From: Variovorax fucosicus | GTDB lineage: Bacteria > Pseudomonadota > Gammaproteobacteria > Burkholderiales > Burkholderiaceae_C | Length of the DNA stretch: 64,000 bases | Reading direction: 5' to 3' | Assembly (NCBI RefSeq): GCF_030316825.1 | Contig: NZ_JASZYU010000001.1 | Span: forward strand, 1,302,001-1,366,000 | Notes under the pieces: generated by a model | Told to the model about the DNA's origin: nothing | The model's input: the letters and a program-made list of their open reading frames with translations, nothing else | The model's database searches: none | Position numbers and translations under genes: made by a program | Shown here: positions 9,213 through 20,099 of the stretch, in pieces | Numbering within the stretch: position 1 is the stretch's first letter | Layout: each line of letters begins with the position of its first letter

Positions 9213-10271
9213 ATGAAGACGATCAAGGGCCCGGCCATCTTTCTGGCCCAGTTCACGGGTGACGCCGCACCGTTCAACTCGCTCGACGCCATCGCCGGCT
9301 GGGCGGCCGGCCTCGGCTACAAGGGCGTTCAGATCCCGAGCTGGGATGCCCGCATCTTCGACCTGAAGAAGGCCGCCGAAAGCAAGACCTACTGCGACGA
9401 GGTGCAGGGCACGCTGGCCGCGCATGGGCTCTCGATCACCGAACTCTCCACGCACCTGCAGGGCCAGTTGGTGGCGGTGCATCCGGCCTACGACGCGGGC
9501 TTCGACGGCTTTGCCGCGGCCGAAGTGCGCAACGATCCGGTCAAACGGCAGCAATGGGCGGTCGAACAATTGCACCTGGCCGCGAAGGCTTCGGCCAACC
9601 TGGGCCTGACGGCGCATGCGACCTTCTCGGGCGCACTGGCCTGGCCCTATCTTTACTCCTGGCCACCGCGCCCGCCGGGCCTGATCGAAGAGGCCTTCGA
9701 CGAGCTCGCACGCCGCTGGCGGCCGATCCTCGACGCCTTCGACGCAGCCGGCGTCGACGTCTGCTACGAGATCCACCCGGGCGAGGACCTTCACGACGGT
9801 GTCACCTACGAGATGTTCCTGGAACGCGTCGGCGGCCACAAGCGCGCCTGCCTGCTCTACGACCCGAGCCACTTCGTGCTGCAGCAGCTCGACTACCTGG
9901 CCTACATCGACCACTACCACGAGCGCATCAAGATCTTTCATGTGAAGGACGCCGAGTTCAACCCGACCGGCAAGCAGGGCGTGTACGGCGGCTTCCAGAC
10001 CTGGCTCAACCGCGCCGGGCGCTTCCGCTCGCTCGGTGATGGGCAGGTCGATTTCGGCGCGATCTTCTCGAAGATGGCCGCCTATGACTTTCCGGGCTGG
10101 GCCGTGCTGGAGTGGGAGTGCTGCATCAAGCACCCGGAAGACGGTGCGCGCGAAGGCGCCCTGTTCATTGCCGATCACATCATCCGCGTGGCCGACCGCG
10201 CTTTCGACGACTTCGCGGGTGGTGGCGCCGACACGGCCGCCAACCGCAAGATGCTGGGAATCGCACCATGA
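9213..10271 (+). CDS. Sugar phosphate isomerase/epimerase family protein (AP endonuclease 2 TIM barrel)
   Basis: A 352-residue TIM-barrel protein of the xylose isomerase-like superfamily. Metal-ligand segments are visible: VCYEIHPGED, LLYDPSHFVL, IDHYHERIKIFHVKDAEF and WAVLEWECC. These Glu/Asp/His positions bind divalent metal in sugar isomerases and epimerases of this fold. It follows the acyl-CoA operon after 37 bp on the same strand, so it may be cotranscribed, although a sugar enzyme does not fit the CoA theme. The next gene overlaps by ATGA. Substrate unknown. Confidence 0.8.
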   Translation: MKTIKGPAIFLAQFTGDAAPFNSLDAIAGWAAGLGYKGVQIPSWDARIFDLKKAAESKTYCDEVQGTLAAHGLSITELSTHLQGQLVAVHPAYDAGFDGFAAAEVRNDPVKRQQWAVEQLHLAAKASANLGLTAHATFSGALAWPYLYSWPPRPPGLIEEAFDELARRWRPILDAFDAAGVDVCYEIHPGEDLHDGVTYEMFLERVGGHKRACLLYDPSHFVLQQLDYLAYIDHYHERIKIFHVKDAEFNPTGKQGVYGGFQTWLNRAGRFRSLGDGQVDFGAIFSKMAAYDFPGWAVLEWECCIKHPEDGAREGALFIADHIIRVADRAFDDFAGGGADTAANRKMLGIAP

Positions 10272-10669
10272 TGGCCAACCTCACGCCGTTCCTGCTGCAC
10301 TGGGCCATCACCGCGGTGTCGCTCTGGATCGCGAGCCTGCTGTTTCGCGGGCTCTCGTTCTCGAGCACCTGGTCGCTCGTGATCTCGGCGCTGTTGCTGG
10401 GCCTGGCCAACGCGGTGGTGAAGCCGCTGCTGATCGTGCTGACGCTGCCGCTCACGCTGATCACGTTCGGGCTCTTCCTGCTGGTCATCAACGCGCTGAT
10501 GATCCTGCTGGTGGCGGCGCTGGTGCGCGGCTTCAAGGTGTCGGGCTTCTGGACGGCGCTGTTCGCGAGCCTGTTCATCTCGATCCTCAGCATCGTGATC
10601 GGCGGCTTCTTCGTCGGCGGTCCGCCCGAAACCGAGATCCGGATGCCAAGCAGCGGGCAGTGGCTGTAG
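10268..10669 (+). CDS. Phage-holin-superfamily IV (YvlD-like) small membrane protein
   Basis: A 133-residue, strongly hydrophobic protein with about four membrane segments: HWAITAVSLWIASLLF, WSLVISALLLGLANAVV, LLIVLTLPLTLITFGLFLLV and LFASLFISILSIVIGGFFVG. The motif VVKPLLIVLTLPLTLITFG is characteristic of the family annotated as mycobacterial 4-TMS phage holin or YvlD. Such genes are chromosomal housekeeping genes in most bacteria and do not imply a prophage. The start overlaps the upstream stop (ATGA); a second ATG follows directly. Function unknown. Confidence 0.8.
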   Translation: MMANLTPFLLHWAITAVSLWIASLLFRGLSFSSTWSLVISALLLGLANAVVKPLLIVLTLPLTLITFGLFLLVINALMILLVAALVRGFKVSGFWTALFASLFISILSIVIGGFFVGGPPETEIRMPSSGQWL

Positions 10670-11299: not shown

Positions 11300-12811
11300 A
11301 TGGATCTGATTCACAACCTCTCGATCGGTTTCGGTGTCGCGTTCACCTTCACCAACCTGCTGTACTGCCTGGTCGGCTGCATCCTGGGCACGCTGATCGG
11401 CGTGCTGCCGGGCATCGGCCCGGTCGCGACCATCGCGATGCTGCTGCCCGCCACCTATGCGCTGCCGCCCGTGTCGGCGCTGATCATGCTGGCCGGCATC
11501 TACTACGGCGCGCAGTACGGCGGCTCCACCACCGCCATCCTGGTCAACCTGCCCGGGGAGTCGTCCTCGGTGGTGACCTGCATCGACGGCTACCAGATGG
11601 CGCGCCAGGGGCGCGCGGGGCCCGCCCTCGCGGCGGCCGGCCTGGGCTCGTTCTTTGCCGGCTGCGTCGGCACCCTGATCCTGGCTGCGTTCGCGCCGCC
11701 GCTGACCGAGCTGGCCTTCAAGTTCGGTCCGGCCGAGTATTTCTCGCTGATGATCCTGGGCCTGATCGGCGCCGTGGTGCTGGCTTCGGGCTCGCTGCTC
11801 AAGGCAGTCGCCATGATCGTGCTGGGCCTGCTGCTCGGCATCGTCGGCACTGACGTGAATTCGGGCGTGGCACGCTTCAGCTTCGACGTCCCGGAACTCA
11901 CCGACGGCATCGGCTTCGTCGTGATTGCGATGGGCGTGTTCGGCTATGGCGAAATCATCGGCAATCTCTCGCAGCCCGACGACGAGCGCGAGGTGTTCAC
12001 CGCCAACGTCACGGGCCTGTGGCCGACCAAGGACGACTTCAAGCGCATGGCGCCGGCCGTGCTGCGCGGCACCACGCTGGGCTCGGCGCTCGGCATCCTG
12101 CCCGGCGGCGGTGCATTGCTGGCGGCTTTCGCGGCCTATGCCCTGGAAAAGAAGATCAAGATGCAGCCAGGCGAAGTGCCGTTCGGCAAGGGCAACATCC
12201 GCGGCGTCGCGTCGCCGGAATCGGCCAACAATGCCGGGGCGCAGACCTCGTTCATTCCGCTGCTGACGCTCGGTATTCCGCCCAACGCCGTGATGGCGCT
12301 GATGGTGGGTGCCATGACCATCCACAACATCCAGCCCGGCCCGCAGGTGATGACCAGCAACCCGGAGCTGTTCTGGGGCCTGATCGCTTCGATGTGGATC
12401 GGCAACGCAATGCTGATCATCCTGAATCTGCCGCTGATCGGCATGTGGATCAAGCTGCTGACGGTGCCCTACAAGTTCCTGTTTCCGGCGATCGTGCTGT
12501 TCTGCGCGATTGGCGTGTACTCCACCAACAACAACACCTTCGACATCTGGATGGTCGCGGCCTTCGGCTTCATCGGCTACCTTTTCCTCAAGCTCAAGAC
12601 CGAGCCGGCGCCGCTGCTGCTGGGCTTCATCCTCGGGCCGATGATGGAAGAGAACCTGCGCCGCGCGCTGCTGCTGTCGCGCGGCACCTGGAGCGTGTTC
12701 GTCACGCGGCCGCTCTCGGCCGGCCTGCTGGTGGCCGCCGTGCTGCTGCTGGGCATCGTGCTGCTGCCGTCGATCAAGGCGAAGCGCGAAGAGGCGTTTG
12801 TGGAGGACTAG
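11300..12811 (+). CDS. tctA: Tripartite tricarboxylate transporter, large membrane subunit TctA
   Basis: A 503-residue polytopic protein of about 12 membrane segments. It carries the TctA signatures GTLIGVLPGIGPVATIAMLL and YYGAQYGGSTTAILVNLPGE near the N-terminus and FIPLLTLGIPPNAVMALMVG in the second half, the duplicated substrate-pathway motifs of the family. The ATG at 11300 follows GAGGAG by nine bases. It forms the transport channel with TctB just upstream. The gene is followed by a dispersed repeat and an intrinsic terminator, marking the operon end. Confidence 0.94.
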   Translation: MDLIHNLSIGFGVAFTFTNLLYCLVGCILGTLIGVLPGIGPVATIAMLLPATYALPPVSALIMLAGIYYGAQYGGSTTAILVNLPGESSSVVTCIDGYQMARQGRAGPALAAAGLGSFFAGCVGTLILAAFAPPLTELAFKFGPAEYFSLMILGLIGAVVLASGSLLKAVAMIVLGLLLGIVGTDVNSGVARFSFDVPELTDGIGFVVIAMGVFGYGEIIGNLSQPDDEREVFTANVTGLWPTKDDFKRMAPAVLRGTTLGSALGILPGGGALLAAFAAYALEKKIKMQPGEVPFGKGNIRGVASPESANNAGAQTSFIPLLTLGIPPNAVMALMVGAMTIHNIQPGPQVMTSNPELFWGLIASMWIGNAMLIILNLPLIGMWIKLLTVPYKFLFPAIVLFCAIGVYSTNNNTFDIWMVAAFGFIGYLFLKLKTEPAPLLLGFILGPMMEENLRRALLLSRGTWSVFVTRPLSAGLLVAAVLLLGIVLLPSIKAKREEAFVED

Positions 12812-12908
12812 CTCGCCCCCAGGCTGCGCGCACTTCGTGTCGCTTCGCCTACCCCCTGCCGGGGGCGACACCTGCGGCCCGGCGAAGCCGGTTCCGCGGT
12901 GTCTCACG
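12811..12908. repeat. Dispersed intergenic repeat, copy A
   Basis: About 98 bp directly after the tctA stop codon that align end to end with 37881-37979. The 28-bp core from 12875 to 12902 is identical in the two copies. Within it, CCCCC TGCC GGGGG (12852-12865) forms a hairpin whose stem is kept in copy B with a different loop. Both copies follow the last gene of a rightward operon in the same orientation, so a role at transcript ends is plausible. Confidence 0.75.
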
Positions 12909-12917
12909 AACAGAAAG

Positions 12918-12937
12918 GCCGCCCTTGGGCGGCTTTT
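12918..12937 (+). terminator. Intrinsic terminator after tctBA
   Basis: GCCGCCC-TT-GGGCGGC followed immediately by TTTT and CTCTT: a perfect 7-bp GC stem with a U-tract, 107 bp after the tctA stop. It separates the transporter from the next operon, which starts 50 bp further on. Confidence 0.8.
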
Positions 12938-12987
12938 CTCTTGTGGGGTGGGGCGTGTAGACTGCTAGGTTTTTCGCTCTGGGCGGT

Positions 12988-13677
12988 ATGGTGCAAGTGT
13001 CACGGCGTACTGGGGTTACCGGTTCGACGCTCGTTCGCTTGCTCGCTCGACTGGCCGACACCGAGGCCCCCGAATCCAAACAAGCGTTCGCTGATCGACT
13101 GAGCCAATGGCTTGGCTGGACGGACGCGATTTCGCTGTCCGCGGCGTTGAGCGGCAGTTCGGCGGCGGCGCGATCGGGCGCGGCGGCTGACGCCAGCGCC
13201 GAACGAGCCCAGTGCGCGCGCGTGCGCAGCGCGGCGGCGAGCGCCATCGCCGAAGACATGCGCGGCGCCGCCATGGACACGGACACAACCACCGGCTTCT
13301 CGCCCTGGCGCCAGCGCTACCTTGCGCGGCAACAGGCGATGGCGACGAGCATCGGCGCGCTGCGCGGCCGTCTGCGGGAGACGCTGGCGGCCCGATCGCC
13401 GGCGATGGCCCGGCTGGCCGCGGTGGATGCCGTCATGGAGCAGGTGCTGGGCGCGCACGAGCACCGCCTGCTGGCCACCGTGCCCGCCCTGCTCGAAAAG
13501 CATTTCAAGCGCCTGCGCCCGGCCGACCCGGCGCCGGACGCGCCAGACAACCCTGAAGTCCAGCCCAGAGCGTGGCTGGACGTGTTCGGCCAGGACATGC
13601 AAAGCGTGTTGCTCGCCGAGCTGGACATCCGATTGCAACCGGTCGAAGGGCTGCTCGAAGCCCTTGCTGCCCGCTAA
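12988..13677 (+). CDS. DUF3348 family protein, first gene of a putative membrane-motor operon
   Basis: A 229-residue protein without signal peptide or membrane helix. It opens with TGSTLVRLLARLADTE and a helix-rich QAFADRLSQWLGWTDAISLS, features I associate with DUF3348, whose function is unknown. The rest is mostly helical and Ala/Arg-rich, ending QDMQSVLLAELDIRLQPVEG. It lies 10 bp before the DUF802 gene on the same strand and is very probably cotranscribed with it. A cytoplasmic partner that binds the long tail of the motor protein is one possibility; that is inference. The ATG at 12988 has no strong ribosome-binding site. Confidence 0.8.
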   Translation: MVQVSRRTGVTGSTLVRLLARLADTEAPESKQAFADRLSQWLGWTDAISLSAALSGSSAAARSGAAADASAERAQCARVRSAAASAIAEDMRGAAMDTDTTTGFSPWRQRYLARQQAMATSIGALRGRLRETLAARSPAMARLAAVDAVMEQVLGAHEHRLLATVPALLEKHFKRLRPADPAPDAPDNPEVQPRAWLDVFGQDMQSVLLAELDIRLQPVEGLLEALAAR

Positions 13678-13687
13678 CCAGACTGCC

Positions 13688-15778
13688 ATGACCCGATCTC
13701 TTCACTACACCGCCTTCTTCATCGGCCTTGCCGCCATCGGCTGGGTCGGCGCCGGCTACATCGGCTCCAACCCTCTGGCGCTGATGATCACGCTGCTGGT
13801 CGGCGCGTTCTACCTGATGGGCGCGCTGGAGCTGCACCGCTTTCACGATGCCACCGCCACCCTGGCGCGCGCCGTGACAGACATGCCCGAGCCGCCGGCG
13901 AACCTGGGCCAATGGCTCGACCAGCTGCATCCCTCCTTGCGCAACGCGGTGCGCCTGCGCATCGAGGGTGAGCGCGTCGGCCTGCCCGGCCCGGCCCTGA
14001 CGCCCTACCTGACCGGCCTGCTGGTGCTGCTGGGCATGCTCGGCACCTTCGTTGGCATGGTGGTCACGCTGAACGGCACCGGCACGGCGCTGGAGAGCGC
14101 ATCGGATCTGCTGGCCATCCGCTCGTCCCTGGCCGCCCCGGTCAAGGGCCTGGGGCTGGCGTTCGGCACCTCGCTCGCGGGCGTGGCTGCGTCCGCGATG
14201 CTCGGCCTGATCTCCGCCCTGTGCCGGCGCGACCGCCTGCAGACCGCGCAGCTGCTCGACACGCGGATCGCGACCACCTTGCGCGTCTTCTCCCTCGCGC
14301 ATCAGCGCGAGGAGTCCTTCAAGCTGCTGCAGCGACAGGGCGAGGCGATGCCCGTGCTGGTCGATCGGCTGCAGGCCATGATGGCGGCGATGGAACGGCA
14401 GAGCCAGGCGCTGAACGAGCGCCTGATCGCCAACCAGGACAGCTTCCACGGCAAGGCCGAGGCCGCGTATGCCGGCCTGGCTTCTTCCGTCGGCCGATCG
14501 CTGAAGGACAGCCTGACGGAAAGCGCCCGCGCGGCCGGCGCGACGATCCAGCCGGTTGTCGAGGCCACGATGGCCGGCATCGCGCGCGAGACGGCTTCGT
14601 TGCACAAGACCGTCGAGAACAGCGTGCAGCAGCAACTCGACGGACTGTCGACCCGCTTCGAGGCCACCACCACCACCGTGGCGGACATCTGGCAGACCGC
14701 GCTCGCCGGGCACCAGCGTGCGAGCGAGGCGCAGTCCAGCCACTTGCGCAGCTCGCTCGACCAGTTCACCGAGACTTTCGAGCAACGCTCGGCATCGCTG
14801 GTGGACGGCGTCTCTGCCCGCCTGGAAACCACGGTCGAGCGCGTGTCGGATTCCTGGCGCAGTGCGCTCGCGCAGCATGAGCGCGTGAGCGAGAGCCTGT
14901 CGGGTGACACGCAGCGCGCCCTGACGGCGGCAGCGGCGACCTTCGAGCAGCACTCGGCCTCCCTGCTGGGCACCGTGAGCCAGGCGCATGCCGACCTGCA
15001 GACCGGAATCGCGTCGCGAGACGAGCAGCGGCTCGCGGCCTGGACCCAGGCGCTCGAGGCGATGGCCGTGTCGCTCCAGCAGGAATGGCAGCAGGCGGGC
15101 GTGCGCAGCGAGAGCCAGCAGCAGGAAATCTGCAAGACGCTGGCACAGACCGCCAGCGACATCACCGCCCAGACCGAAGCGCACGCGCGCAGCACCATCG
15201 CCGAAATCGCCCAGCTCATGCAGACCGCTTCGGAAGCACCACGTGCCGCGGCCGAAGTGATTGCGGAACTGCGGCAGAAACTTTCCGACAGCATGGTGCA
15301 CGACAACGCCATGCTGGAGGAGCGCAGCCGCATCCTCGGCACGCTGGAGACACTGCTCAATGCGGTGAACCATGCATCGACCGAGCAGCGCACGGCGATC
15401 GACGCGCTGGTCGGCGCATCGGCGGACCTGCTGGACCGGGTCGGCGCGCGCTTCACCGACAGGGTCGATGCCGAAGCCGGCAAGATGGCCGAGGTCACCG
15501 CACAGCTCACCGGCAGTGCCGTCGAGGTGGCGAGCATGGGCGAGGCCTTCGGCCTGGCCGTGCAGCTGTTCAGTCAATCGAACGACAAGCTGGGCGCCCA
15601 GTTGCAGCGCATCGAAGGCGCACTCGGCAAGTCGATGGTGCGCAGTGACGAACAACTCGCCTACTACGTGGCGCAGGCCAGGGAAGTCGTCGACCTGAGC
15701 ATGCTGTCGCAAAGGCAGATCGTCGAGGACCTGCAGCGGCTCGCCAGCCAGCAGGCACTCGCGGGCAGCGAAGCGTGA
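13688..15778 (+). CDS. DUF802 protein: MotA/TolQ/ZorA-like channel with long cytoplasmic tail
   Basis: A 696-residue protein. Two N-terminal helices (about 8-24 and 29-48) are followed by a short soluble part, then helix 107-128 with GLLVLLGMLGTFVGM and helix 155-178 with LAFGTSLAGVAASAMLGLIS. The G-LLGT-GM pattern followed by a small-residue AF-TSLAG helix is the hallmark of the MotA/TolQ/ExbB proton-channel superfamily. After about residue 180 there are over 500 residues of Ala/Glu/Gln-rich, apparently coiled-coil sequence, reminiscent of the long ZorA tail. Known: DUF802 is uncharacterised. Inferred: it forms the pentameric stator part of an ion-driven complex with the OmpA-like protein encoded next. 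The stop overlaps the next start. Confidence 0.82.
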   Translation: MTRSLHYTAFFIGLAAIGWVGAGYIGSNPLALMITLLVGAFYLMGALELHRFHDATATLARAVTDMPEPPANLGQWLDQLHPSLRNAVRLRIEGERVGLPGPALTPYLTGLLVLLGMLGTFVGMVVTLNGTGTALESASDLLAIRSSLAAPVKGLGLAFGTSLAGVAASAMLGLISALCRRDRLQTAQLLDTRIATTLRVFSLAHQREESFKLLQRQGEAMPVLVDRLQAMMAAMERQSQALNERLIANQDSFHGKAEAAYAGLASSVGRSLKDSLTESARAAGATIQPVVEATMAGIARETASLHKTVENSVQQQLDGLSTRFEATTTTVADIWQTALAGHQRASEAQSSHLRSSLDQFTETFEQRSASLVDGVSARLETTVERVSDSWRSALAQHERVSESLSGDTQRALTAAAATFEQHSASLLGTVSQAHADLQTGIASRDEQRLAAWTQALEAMAVSLQQEWQQAGVRSESQQQEICKTLAQTASDITAQTEAHARSTIAEIAQLMQTASEAPRAAAEVIAELRQKLSDSMVHDNAMLEERSRILGTLETLLNAVNHASTEQRTAIDALVGASADLLDRVGARFTDRVDAEAGKMAEVTAQLTGSAVEVASMGEAFGLAVQLFSQSNDKLGAQLQRIEGALGKSMVRSDEQLAYYVAQAREVVDLSMLSQRQIVEDLQRLASQQALAGSEA

Positions 15779-16437
15779 TGACCGAGATGACGGAGCACGG
15801 CGACGGCGGCATGGAGTCGTCGGTGCCGGTCTGGGCCGTGTTCGGCGACCTGATGTCGGGGCTGCTGGGCGCCTTCGTGCTGATTCTGGTGTGCGTGCTG
15901 GGCATGCAGCTGGAACTCGCGACCCGGCTGGAAGCCGAGGTCAAGCAGCGGCAGGTGGAGGCGCAGCGCCTCCAGACGCTCGAGCAGGCCCTCGCGGGAC
16001 CGCTGGCAGCGGGCCGGGTGACGCTGAACAACGGGCGCATCGGCATCAGCGGCAGCGTGCTGTTTGCCCTCAACTCCGCTGAACTGCAGCCCGAAGGCCG
16101 GCAACTGCTGAAGAGCCTGGCCGCACCGCTGGCCGCCTACCTCCAGGCCCGTGACGAGATCCTGATGGTGAGCGGCTTCACCGACGACCGGCAGGTGCGC
16201 GGCGGCAACCGCCAGTTCGCCGACAACTGGGAGCTGTCCGCCCAGCGGGCCTTGACGGTAACCCGGGCATTGATCGAGGAAGGCCTGCCCTCGGCCTCGG
16301 TCTTTGCCGCGGCCTTCGGCGCGGAGCAGGCAGTGGCCTCGAATGCCGATGCCGACGGCCGTTCGAAGAACCGGCGCGTGGAAATGGCGCCGACGCCGAA
16401 ACGATCCGACGCAATCCTGAAGAAGCCCCGTGAGTAG
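15778..16437 (+). CDS. MotB/ZorB-like OmpA-domain protein, partner of the DUF802 channel
   Basis: A 219-residue protein with a single N-terminal membrane helix (about 19-42) reading VWAVFGDLMSGLLGAFVLIL, no cleavable signal, a short coiled-coil linker, and a C-terminal OmpA/MotB peptidoglycan-binding domain (about 90-212; VLFALNSAEL, SGFTDDR, NRRVEM). Asp24 at the start of the helix corresponds to the proton-carrying Asp of MotB, TolR and ZorB. This supports a B-subunit role in a two-component motor anchored to peptidoglycan. The ATG at 15778 overlaps the upstream TGA; a GTG one codon earlier is an alternative. The gene overlaps the next by 8 bp. Confidence 0.85.
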   Translation: MTEMTEHGDGGMESSVPVWAVFGDLMSGLLGAFVLILVCVLGMQLELATRLEAEVKQRQVEAQRLQTLEQALAGPLAAGRVTLNNGRIGISGSVLFALNSAELQPEGRQLLKSLAAPLAAYLQARDEILMVSGFTDDRQVRGGNRQFADNWELSAQRALTVTRALIEEGLPSASVFAAAFGAEQAVASNADADGRSKNRRVEMAPTPKRSDAILKKPRE

Positions 16438-17029
16438 CACCGACGCCGGGGCCCTGCTCGACGCCTGGCGCGAGCGTGGCGACCATCACCACGATCCCGT
16501 CCGCTTCCGTTTCATCGAGGCGCTCGCCACGCGGGCAGCCGCGCAGCGCGGCGATGCACGACGCATCCTCGACGACAGGCTGGCCCGCCTGCTGGCGGCG
16601 TATGGCGAGGAGCTTGGCACAACAGACTCGTGTGCGGACGCCACCGCGAAACTACCAACGCCACCCGATCGCAGCGCGCTCGCGGAGCTGGTCGACCACA
16701 TCGGCCGGCATGCATCGACCCATGACGTCGAAACGCTGAGCTATTTCAGAAGCACCTGGTCCCGGCTCAGCGCCGAGCGGCGGCTGACGCAATCGCTGGC
16801 GAAGCTGCCGGAGAATGCCGGCCCGCTCAACTCGCACCAGCTCGTGCACCGGTCGCTCACGTTGATGCGCGAGCTGTCGCCGGAGTACCTGCACCGGTTC
16901 ATGGCGTACGTCGACGCCCTGCTGTGGATCGATCAGGCGAATGCAGGCGGCGCCCCGGCGGGTGCGGACGTGCCGCGCGGCGAGAGCCACCGGAAGACGG
17001 CGCGCGCCAGATCTACCACCGCACCTTGA
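16430..17029 (+). CDS. DUF2894 family protein, last gene of the putative motor operon
   Basis: A 199-residue soluble protein beginning with a GTG inside the upstream gene. ALLDAWRERGDHHHDPVRFR and FIEALATRAAAQRGDARRIL are typical of DUF2894, which has no known function. The sequence is helical, Arg-rich, without signal or membrane segments, so it is probably cytoplasmic. Its 8-bp overlap with the OmpA-like gene suggests translational coupling and a stable stoichiometry with the complex. The 3' end overlaps the end of the converging autotransporter gene by 17 bp. Confidence 0.8.
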   Translation: MSSTDAGALLDAWRERGDHHHDPVRFRFIEALATRAAAQRGDARRILDDRLARLLAAYGEELGTTDSCADATAKLPTPPDRSALAELVDHIGRHASTHDVETLSYFRSTWSRLSAERRLTQSLAKLPENAGPLNSHQLVHRSLTLMRELSPEYLHRFMAYVDALLWIDQANAGGAPAGADVPRGESHRKTARARSTTAP

Positions 17030-19976
17030 GGCCGACGGCGCCCTGCACCGAGGACTTCACGCGGGCATCGCCGCCGGTGCTGAACAGGCGCCCCACTTCA
17101 CCGTAGACGCTGGCGGCGGGCGTCACGGCGAGCGTGAAGCCGCCGGCCAGTTCGGCCGAGGTGTAGCCGCTGGCGCTGGCGATGCGCGTGCTGGCCGCCG
17201 GGCCGATGAACTCGGCAACGTCGGCGCCGCGGCCCGTGCGGTACAGGTTCGCGCGCGCGTAGGGCTGCAGCCGGCCGGCACCGGTCGCGATGTCGCCCTT
17301 GATGCGCACGCCCAGGCGGCCGATCCAGCCGCCGTCGGCGTCCTGCCGCACGGTCGCGCCGGTGATCTGCACGTCGTCGAAGCGCGTGCGCTGGTGAATC
17401 AGCTGCGCCTGCGGCTCGATGCGCCAGCCCTCGGCCAGCGCAAAGGACTGGCCGACCTCGATCGACGCCGTCAGGCTGCGGGCCTTGCCCGAGGCGCCCG
17501 GATTGCTGTCGGGCCGCACGCCGTAGCGATGGCTGCCGGCCTGAACCACGGCATCGGCATAGAGGCCGCTCGCGTCCATCCAGGTCGCATAGCCGCCAAG
17601 GTAGCGCGATTGCAGTTCGTTGTGGCCGACCTTGGCGGTGATGCCGCGCGCGTTGCCGCTCACGTCGGCACTGCCGTCCAGGGTGCCGACGTAGACGCCC
17701 GCGCGCCAGTTGCCGCTGGCCAGCAGGTCGGTACCGGCCTGCAGGCCGCTGACGTGGCCGCGACTTTGCGCGCGGGCGACGCCGGCCTGGCGGATGTCGA
17801 GGCCGCTGTAGACGGCGCGGGCCCAGGCGCGGCGCAGCGCGCTGGTGTCGGCGGCATCGCCGGGTGCAGTCGCGGCCTCGTCGCCGATGCGGCGGTTCAG
17901 GTTGCCCAGCATGCCGAGGTCGGCCTGGCGCAGTTGCGCCGGCAGCGCCGCGAAGAGCGGGACTTCGGCACGGTAGGTCGGCACGCTCAGCTGCGGCAGG
18001 GTCGGCGTGGCGGGCGTGTCCGCGGTCGGAGTGGGCGTGGCGGGGGTGGTCGGGATGGTCGGGATGGTCGGCGCGACGGTCGTTGCCGAACGCAAGTACC
18101 AGTTCTCGCCGGCGCCCTGGGCATCGGCCGCATACAGGCGGTACTCGTAGGCGCCCGCATCGACATGGCCGCCGCTCAGCGCGAAACCGTCCTTGGTGGT
18201 CTGCGCAGTGGTGGTGGCGCCGCTGCCCGCGCTCACCACCTCGATGCCGTTGCCGGTCGTCAGGGCCCCCAGGCCGCCGACGTTGTTGATCTGCAGGAGG
18301 GTGTTGCCGCTGACCGCACCGCCATTGATGACGATCCGGTCGGTCTGCGAGCCGGAATTTCCCAGCGAAGTATTGAGCCGCACCGTACCGCCCTGGCCGA
18401 CCCAGTTGCCGTTGACGGTCAAGGTCTTGGGAACAAATGCCGCAGCGGGTGCCTGGAAGTCGATGCGGCCGGCAAGGGTCAGGCCGCTCAGGGAGGAATC
18501 GCCGGTCATCGTCCAGCGGCTGGTGCCATCGATGTTCAGGGTCACCGGATCGATGGCGCCCGTCAGGCTCGAGGCGTTCAGCAGACTCAGGCTGACGGCG
18601 CTGCCGGCATCCGTCACGATGTCGCCGGTCAGTGTGCTGCGATTGGCGGTCAGCGCAAACGTGCTGCCGTTCGTGACATTCAACAGCTTGCTGCCCGAGG
18701 CGGCCGAGGCCGTGCTGTTGTTCAGCACGAGCGCAGAGTTGCCGGTTGCCCCATTGACCTGAATCAGATCGCCCGAGGTGTTGCTGATGGCGAAGCCGTC
18801 AAAGCGAGCGTTCTGGTCTGCGCCCGCCAGAAAACCCAGTGCGACGCCGGCTGCGTTGACCGTGCCGCCGCCCGTCGCCGCGAGGGTGGAGTTGCTCCCG
18901 GCCAGCAGCGCGCCATAGCTCGTGGCGTCGGTGGTGTTGATCCGAAGCGCGCCGGTCGCCGTGATGGCGCCGCCCAGGTCGGCCAACACGCCGGCAGCGT
19001 AGGACTCCGGATTGCCGCTCGGGAAGTCTGCCTGCGTGGCGCCGCTCACGTTGATGAGCGTGCTGCCCGCCAGGTTCACCTGGGAACCGGCGTCCCGCGA
19101 AGAGATGCCCTGGCCGTTGACGCCGGTGACGTTGATCGACGTGGCCGAAGACGCGTTCGCATCCACGATACCGCCGGTGACCGCGCGGATCCCGGATCCG
19201 TTGATGCTGCTGATGTTGATCGTGGCCGGCCCGCTGTAGACGATGCGGCCCGCGCTGGTGACTTTCAGCGCGGACGACTGCACACCGCTGGTGGTGAGAT
19301 TCAACGAGCCATTCAATGTGATCGTGGCCGAAGTGGCCGCCGCAATGGCATCCGACCGGTTGTCACCGGCGGTGTTGATGGTTACAGCGCCATTGGCAAC
19401 CACGGCCGAACTGGTGAGGGCGCGGATCCCTGGAGCAAATGCGGTGCCGCTGCCCATGGTGATGTCGACGGGTCCGTTCAGCGTGATGAGGGTGCCGCTG
19501 TCTTCCGTGAGCACGCCATGGTTGCCCGACCCGTTGGACAAGGTGATCGACAGCGGGCCGTTGACGGTGATGGCACCACCAGCGCCCGCACGAAGCCCCC
19601 CGTTTCCGGTGGTCGCGCCAGTCCTGCTGATGGTAGCGCCAGCTTGCAGGTTGACTTGCGAGCCCGCACCGGCGGCGGACGCACCGAACACGCTGTTTTG
19701 GGCCAGAGGCATCGTCAGGGCGGCAGCCGCGTTGACCACGCCTCCGGTCAACGAAGAGACGGCGCCCCTGCCCGACGCCACGCCGATGCCGGTGTAGCCG
19801 CCTGAGGCAGCGCAGGTCGACCCCGCATTGGCCTGGAGTCGGATGCCTGCAACTCCGGGACAGGCTGCCAAGGCGGCATTCGGCAAAAGGCCGGCCGACA
19901 TGGTCAGGATTGCGATGGAAACGATCTGGCGGGCGTGCGGGTTCGCTGCGGGCTGTGCGGGGAAACGGTAATTCAT
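17013..19976 (-). CDS. Type Va autotransporter, beta-helical passenger
   Basis: A 987-residue secreted protein. The signal peptide IVSIAILTMSAGLLPNAALA ends in an ALA cleavage site near residue 37. The passenger (to about 640) is rich in short Gly/Asn/Ser/Thr/Val repeats of the right-handed beta-helix kind. A Pro/Thr linker (TVAPTIPTIPTTPATP) leads into a C-terminal autotransporter beta-barrel of about 270 residues ending GAVGLKVRW, with the aromatic last residue needed for barrel assembly. No protease motif or RGD is evident; adhesion or biofilm roles are possible. The start used is the ATG at 19976; an in-frame TTG at 20042 would add 22 residues. The 3' end overlaps the DUF2894 gene by 17 bp. 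Confidence 0.85.
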   Translation of the reverse strand: MNYRFPAQPAANPHARQIVSIAILTMSAGLLPNAALAACPGVAGIRLQANAGSTCAASGGYTGIGVASGRGAVSSLTGGVVNAAAALTMPLAQNSVFGASAAGAGSQVNLQAGATISRTGATTGNGGLRAGAGGAITVNGPLSITLSNGSGNHGVLTEDSGTLITLNGPVDITMGSGTAFAPGIRALTSSAVVANGAVTINTAGDNRSDAIAAATSATITLNGSLNLTTSGVQSSALKVTSAGRIVYSGPATINISSINGSGIRAVTGGIVDANASSATSINVTGVNGQGISSRDAGSQVNLAGSTLINVSGATQADFPSGNPESYAAGVLADLGGAITATGALRINTTDATSYGALLAGSNSTLAATGGGTVNAAGVALGFLAGADQNARFDGFAISNTSGDLIQVNGATGNSALVLNNSTASAASGSKLLNVTNGSTFALTANRSTLTGDIVTDAGSAVSLSLLNASSLTGAIDPVTLNIDGTSRWTMTGDSSLSGLTLAGRIDFQAPAAAFVPKTLTVNGNWVGQGGTVRLNTSLGNSGSQTDRIVINGGAVSGNTLLQINNVGGLGALTTGNGIEVVSAGSGATTTAQTTKDGFALSGGHVDAGAYEYRLYAADAQGAGENWYLRSATTVAPTIPTIPTTPATPTPTADTPATPTLPQLSVPTYRAEVPLFAALPAQLRQADLGMLGNLNRRIGDEAATAPGDAADTSALRRAWARAVYSGLDIRQAGVARAQSRGHVSGLQAGTDLLASGNWRAGVYVGTLDGSADVSGNARGITAKVGHNELQSRYLGGYATWMDASGLYADAVVQAGSHRYGVRPDSNPGASGKARSLTASIEVGQSFALAEGWRIEPQAQLIHQRTRFDDVQITGATVRQDADGGWIGRLGVRIKGDIATGAGRLQPYARANLYRTGRGADVAEFIGPAASTRIASASGYTSAELAGGFTLAVTPAASVYGEVGRLFSTGGDARVKSSVQGAVGLKVRW

Positions 19977-20099
19977 CGGAGACGCGATGGGCCAGGCTGG
20001 GTCTTTGCCCTGCCCTGGGCGTGCGACTCGCCCAAACTTCAATCCCTGAGGTCGCTCGCGATTCCGCTCTACTGCTTCGGATATCCGGCGCAGAAGTAT

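Follow-up and report, generated by a model that had tools for sequence, protein, structure and literature searches.

A four-gene motor cassette of Variovorax fucosicus identified as a probable Zorya type III anti-phage system

Four consecutive open reading frames (ORFs) on the + strand of Variovorax fucosicus DNA (positions 12988-17029 of the window, i.e. the whole 64,000-nucleotide stretch analysed, from contig NZ_JASZYU010000001.1; source genome G000, 5.8 Mb in 16 contigs) raised the question of whether they encode a membrane motor not described before, as a first-pass annotation of the sequence had proposed, or a system already known. The cassette was identified, with a probability of about 0.9, as a complete set of genes for Zorya type III, an anti-phage system already described, because its four proteins matched the PADLOC Zorya-III models, the order of the cassette was kept among relatives and the motor residues fell on the corresponding columns of Zorya I in 8VVN. 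The four genes were:

12988-13677, + strand: DUF3348 protein (ZorF in the papers; ZorG3 in PADLOC-DB 2.0.0), 229 amino acids; PDLC00658, E 1.7e-90; PF11828, E 1.7e-83; AlphaFold2 model all-helical
13688-15778, + strand: ZorA3 ("DUF802 protein"), 696 amino acids; PDLC00650, E 0, 1242 bits; ZorA1 profile, E 1.3e-10
15775-16437, + strand: ZorB3, OmpA/MotB-like, 220 amino acids from GTG or 219 from the ATG at 15778; PDLC00651, E 3.5e-114; OmpA (PF00691), E 7.4e-19
16430-17029, + strand: DUF2894 protein (ZorG in the papers; ZorF3 in PADLOC-DB 2.0.0), 199 amino acids; PDLC00652, E 1.3e-75; PF11445, E 3.8e-57

The genes were spaced by +10, -4 (or -1 with the ATG start of ZorB) and -8 bp, which confirmed the spacings given in the first-pass annotation, together with its gene list, its helix motifs and its tail of more than 500 residues (509 by our count).

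Profiles, gene order and motor residues

All four proteins matched PADLOC Zorya-III profiles (E 1.3e-75 to 0), and the type III profiles were preferred to those of type I (1242 bits for ZorA3 vs. 38.6 for ZorA1; 377.7 bits for ZorB3 vs. 68.3 for ZorB1). The Pfam matches were those listed above and DUF802 in ZorA (E 1.8e-33), a family that corresponded to a 53-residue repeat of the tail, not to the motor domain. The gene set of Zorya type III (DUF3348, ZorA, ZorB, DUF2894) was encoded together, in an order shared by all 40 Variovorax loci retrieved and by 70 of 80 named loci; the available sequence of the other 10 ends no more than 2.7 kb past the DUF3348 gene. None of the four cassette proteins matched the ZorC, ZorD or ZorE profiles of PADLOC, the nine neighbouring proteins having been scanned with Pfam only.

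Zorya type III was named in 2021 (Payne et al., PMC8565338) as ZorA and ZorB plus two further subunits, ZorF (DUF3348) and ZorG (DUF2894), and that paper reports 6,401 pairs (printed as “zorBC”) flanked by DUF3348/DUF2894 genes, a type III copy of Stenotrophomonas nitritireducens which lowered plaque formation by one or more test phages in E. coli, and the proposal that ZorF and ZorG regulate ZorAB. A second paper (PMC11890865) defines type III in the same way, names the genera in which it is most frequent, and solves types I and II, which require the tail, peptidoglycan binding and ion flow. The window cassette had the same four families in the same cassette as the published type III, and differed from it in nothing essential. 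The lead of an “undescribed motor” was therefore closed: the early reading of an ion-driven ZorAB-type motor that has a long tail, is linked to two DUF proteins and possibly serves in defence was right in these respects, but the system is most probably Zorya type III itself, not another member outside Zorya. By analogy with the published Stenotrophomonas homologue, the Variovorax copy may have an anti-phage role. The ZorA/ZorB motor, the ion-carrier Asp, the peptidoglycan-binding domain and the long cytoplasmic tail were common to the cassette and Zorya types I and II (8VVN, 8VVI; PMC11890865), whereas the window cassette has two proteins predicted to be helical in place of ZorC, ZorD or ZorE.

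Two points of nomenclature were observed. The subunit letters are swapped between sources, DUF3348 being ZorF and DUF2894 ZorG in the papers, and the reverse in PADLOC-DB 2.0.0. The only NCBIfam model passed by ZorB3 (among the 25 of 36 matches listed) was PRK09040, a “hypothetical protein” model (377 vs. 194 bits), and NCBI naming would therefore not label ZorB3 as a Zorya protein.

The motor core of ZorA comprised approximately residues 1-187, and carried T120 in the helix motif GMLGTFVG and T161-S162 in AFGTSLAG. Residues 108-191 aligned with ZorA of the Zorya I structure 8VVN (E 1.2e-4), GTF and TS falling in matching columns. The G..GTF.G motif was present in 71 of 79 named-locus and in 41 of 41 Variovorax sequences (five of the eight misses had the variant GTLLG, in which the Thr is retained, and in three the printed sequence was too short), and the TS/TT pair in 76 of 79 and 41 of 41 respectively; by analogy, these Thr/Ser residues may form a ring. 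ZorB had one transmembrane helix and an OmpA-type domain predicted to bind peptidoglycan. Its N-terminal helix aligned with the ZorB of 8VVN (E 0.0034), and the Asp of its FGDLMSG motif fell on the Asp of DLMSGLL in 8VVN; the aligned residue of Zorya I ZorB is D24, described as critical (PMC11890865). The Asp24 placed at the carrier position in the first-pass annotation holds for the ATG start (15778), the same residue being Asp25 from the GTG start. All 70 named-locus and all 41 Variovorax ZorB sequences carried the Asp motif, and the peptidoglycan motif N.LSxxRA occurred in 69 of 70 and 40 of 41 respectively. A further entry, 8QYD, is presumably also a structure of Zorya I.

Two results of the profile searches spoke against the identification: MotA_ExbB was not among the Pfam matches at E-values up to 1, and the NCBIfam ZorA models stayed below their cut-off (best 30.2 of 100 bits). 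For this reason the superfamily link was drawn from the PADLOC ZorA profiles and from 8VVN; the comparison with the MotA/TolQ/ZorA superfamily suggested at the outset was run, and the link to ZorA held on both. A motor of the flagellar, Tol or Exb type, for motility or nutrient uptake, was considered very improbable. The pore architecture would be the same and the OmpA domain of ZorB is MotB-like (3khn, E 8.9e-14), but the best PADLOC profiles were ZorA3 and ZorB3; Mot-type NCBIfam models reached at best 90.8 of 283 bits for ZorB (among the same 25 of 36 matches listed) and there were none for ZorA; and no flagellar, Tol or Ton domain was present among the nine neighbouring proteins scanned. 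TolQR and ExbBD have a small B subunit, and TolR and ExbD are not known to contain an OmpA domain, whereas ZorB carries one. The window motor would work like MotAB/PomAB, TolQR and ExbBD, as an ion-driven membrane motor of the same kind, but is not a member of these systems: its best profiles, its 509-residue tail and its partners are other ones.

The ZorA tail and the two helical partner proteins

The cytoplasmic tail of ZorA (residues 188-696, 509 residues) contained two features of interest:

14645-14974, + strand: two tail repeats of 55 residues each (ZorA 320-374 and 375-429), from autocorrelation, with DUF802 Pfam matches in 2 stretches
15608-15727, + strand: conserved tip of the tail (ZorA residues 641-680), a putative docking site, from top-residue frequency over 111 sequences

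The hydrophobic period of the tail was 3.66 residues (1 of 1000 shuffles was equally strong), and the autocorrelation was high at lags 11, 22 and 55 (z 4.1, 5.0 and 4.6 respectively; 0 of 500 shuffles each), the two 55-residue repeats being visible in the sequence. The 509 residues and the 11-residue periodicity are consistent with the long helical ZorA tail expected of Zorya. Over 110 tails, the hydrophobic period peaked at 3.64-3.68 in 53, at 3.56-3.60 in 49 and at 3.70-3.72 in 8, and tail length ranged from 367 to 836 residues, although some of the shortest may be clipped at contig ends.

The prominent indel sizes among relatives (11, 14, 18, 22, 29, 33, 36, 40, 43, 47, 51, 55, 62, 69, 80, 87 and 95 residues) fitted whole turns of 3.65 residues, a fit reached by 0 of 5000 random sets. 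When 84 nearest-neighbour pairs were compared, their 119 indels of at least 6 residues gave a best period of 3.63 with near-zero phase and a resultant of 0.57 (0 of 5000 jittered sets), the pairs sharing ancestry, so that independent events are fewer than these counts. There was thus a strong tendency, with exceptions, for the tails to differ in length by what would be whole helical turns, and the helical register of the rod seems to be maintained by selection.

Conservation (mean top-residue frequency in the 111 sequences) peaked at the two ends of the protein: 0.75-0.92 in the motor (residues 81-200) and 0.84-0.88 in the tip (641-680). The middle of the tail (341-420) had frequencies of 0.38-0.48 and was partly absent in relatives, and block 581-600 reached 0.58. 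The tip is likely to be the output end of the rod, or its docking site. Weighing against a unique role of the tip, residues 261-300, 521-580 and 601-640 were also fairly conserved (0.72-0.77 per 20-residue block), and docking is therefore not necessarily at the tip alone.

The AlphaFold2 model of DUF3348 was all-helical and confident (predicted local distance difference test, pLDDT, 85.9; predicted template modelling score, pTM, 0.82), and that of DUF2894 was all-helical and less confident (pLDDT 79.9, pTM 0.51). The closest relative of DUF3348 among the matches listed was a protein of Variovorax sp. RT4R15 (97% identity). A common ancestry of the two partners, considered from a stretch resembling R..L..SP...R...DA seen by eye in both, was rejected by profile-profile comparison (probability 0.6%, E 0.091, 20 columns).

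One possible explanation of the output, tentative and less probable than the one favoured below, is that one of the two partners, DUF3348 or DUF2894, acts on DNA as an enzyme of a kind not recognised, or binds DNA, in which case type III would damage DNA near the motor as types I and II do. The strongly conserved C-terminal motif of DUF2894 is compatible with it, but strands were absent from both predicted models, and neither protein matched a nuclease or helicase above cut-off in Pfam, NCBIfam or PADLOC; the only match naming a DNA-replication protein was DnaG_DnaB_bind against DUF2894, which was below cut-off (E 0.027). A regulated motor or ion-leak output via DUF3348/DUF2894 was favoured slightly, at about even odds, because the cassette yielded no nuclease or helicase match. 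Counting against the main reading, the fold searches pointed to no function, with no informative structural match for DUF3348 or for DUF2894 (for the latter mainly residues 1-81 were covered).

In the main reading, the first steps would be those of Zorya I and II: ZorA5B2 would sit in the inner membrane, an injecting phage would disturb the wall so that ZorB grips the peptidoglycan, and the flow of ions would then turn ZorA and its five-helix rod. DUF3348 and/or DUF2894 might dock at the conserved rod tip (ZorA 641-680), a step proposed here, and would act as helical adaptors or gates, not as enzymes, either relaying the signal or holding the motor off until infection. Phage arrest could follow from a sustained ion leak shutting the cell down, or from an additional partner being recruited. 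Searches of one open literature library brought up neither a published mechanism for type III nor an analysis of tail register.

Distribution and chromosomal placement

Distribution was counted in genomes at least 90% complete. DUF3348 was present in 88 of 90 genomes of the genus Variovorax, usually as a single copy, close to the control genes rpoB (87/90) and RecA (90/90), and the SMODS cyclase domain of the cyclic-oligonucleotide-based anti-phage signalling system (CBASS) was present in 18 of the same 90. A single DUF3348 match was found in 85 of the 88 positive genomes; two part-matches lay on separate contigs in G309 and G336, and within one 291-residue open frame in G346, and a second copy seems unlikely in all three. 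A match was absent from two genomes (G337, 99% complete, and G340, 98% complete) and that of G326 contained one stop; on these grounds, Zorya type III can be lost or decay in Variovorax. Another genus of the same family was positive in 6 of 6 genomes, and the counts were 93 of 299 genomes (45 of 126 genera) family-wide and 8 of 276 genomes class-wide. Across the order, 19 of 300 genomes had DUF2894; Corynebacterium glutamicum, one of 14 control genomes and outside the expected lineages, also had a DUF2894 match above cut-off.

DUF3348 was absent from all 50,697 phage records, and was present in 27 of 72,556 plasmid records, every one of them on a replicon of at least 366 kb (7 predicted to be mobilizable). 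Carriage by mobile elements was rejected on the zero among phages and the restriction to large replicons among plasmids.

The placement of the cassette was compared in 40 Variovorax loci, picked for long contigs out of the 88 positive genomes. In none of the 40 did the upstream or the downstream flank share more than 30% with that of the window cassette, the nearest likenesses being a major facilitator superfamily gene (39-40% identity, 5/40 loci) and a helix-turn-helix gene (60%, 1/40). The 41 genomes formed 17 upstream-flank and 20 downstream-flank clusters. In 20 matched genomes, and with recA as the one control gene, pairs sharing more than 30% numbered 21 of 190 upstream for Zorya vs. 190 of 190 for recA, and 13 of 190 downstream vs. 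100 of 190.

The cassette tree (1018 columns) and the rpoB tree agreed in many shallow clades, but each data set rejected the tree of the other, and the two distance matrices were correlated at 0.48 (0 of 2000 permutations). Simple vertical inheritance was rejected by this mutual rejection; since several deep branches were weakly supported and rpoB is one gene, the claim is limited to the two histories being not simply congruent. Our reading is that the cassette was mostly inherited in the short term and moved or replaced in the long term; alternatively, an old cassette may have been caught in genome rearrangement.

Near-universal presence is unusual for a defence system, which weighs against a purely defensive role and leaves room for an extra or other function. 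Zorya III could be mainly a housekeeping or envelope machine, the plasmid-borne phage protection being a side effect of an ion-leaking motor. The near-rpoB frequency, the contrast with SMODS, the 6 of 6 genomes of the other genus, the absence from phage records and the few plasmid records, all of large replicons, would all fit this, but the two nearly complete genomes without a match, the copy with a stop, the differing chromosomal sites and the mutual rejection of the trees speak against it, as do the published data for defence (PMC8565338), and it was considered rather improbable. The near-core, relocating pattern, with CBASS as control, is relevant to the question of whether type III has functions beyond defence.

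Upstream block and neighbouring genes

A conserved block preceded the cassette:

12955-12975, + strand: promoter-like block GTGTAGACTGCTAGGTTTTTC, just 5' of the first gene and conserved in Variovorax upstream regions

The block (GTGTAGACTGC..GGTTTTTC) was usually located about 30 bases 5' of the first start codon. Its 7-mers recurred in as many as 37 of the 41 upstream regions from Variovorax (30 shuffles gave no more than 14), the pattern TAGACT..TTTTT was found in 36 of 41 Variovorax loci, with near variants in the remaining 5, and the site was unique in the 5.8 Mb genome at up to 3 mismatches. Related blocks were seen by eye in Paraburkholderia/Caballeronia loci (GTGTAAACT...TTTTT) and in Rhodocyclales loci (TGTAGTAGCCT..); the pattern as defined in Variovorax had one match among the 80 loci there. 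A consensus scan of positions 12700-17200 found no sigma-70-type site, and the block is therefore a putative promoter of the cassette. Downstream of the cassette no motif was enriched (best 7-mer in 15 of 41, as in shuffles).

Zorya type III being known, the new elements are its near-core distribution at shifting chromosomal sites, the rod that seems to keep its register, the conserved tip and the unique upstream block, none of which turned up in searches of one open literature library. They provide concrete hypotheses for type III: a docking tip at ZorA 641-680, a rod whose length seems to change mainly by whole turns, a promoter block of its own, and a genus in which nearly all sampled species carry the cassette. 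A more far-reaching reading, tentative and with the odds against it, is a lineage-obligate motor that would defend by another route than types I and II, without a nuclease, through a register-locked shaft with a conserved tip on which two helical proteins act as a clutch, releasing or holding the ion flow, encoded by a cassette with a private promoter that is kept in almost every Variovorax species and has been repeatedly moved or replaced.

Among the neighbouring genes, a TctA gene (tripartite tricarboxylate transporter), ending at 12811, adjoined the cassette on its 5' side. A small membrane protein encoded at 10268-10669 matched the Pfam family Phage_holin_4_2 (E 6.6e-31) and is probably not a holin, since the neighbouring proteins scanned were not phage-like. 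On the - strand, a gene for a 1009-residue autotransporter with AC_1 and pertactin-like domains (17013-20042) was arranged tail-to-tail with the DUF2894 gene, which it overlapped by 17 bp.
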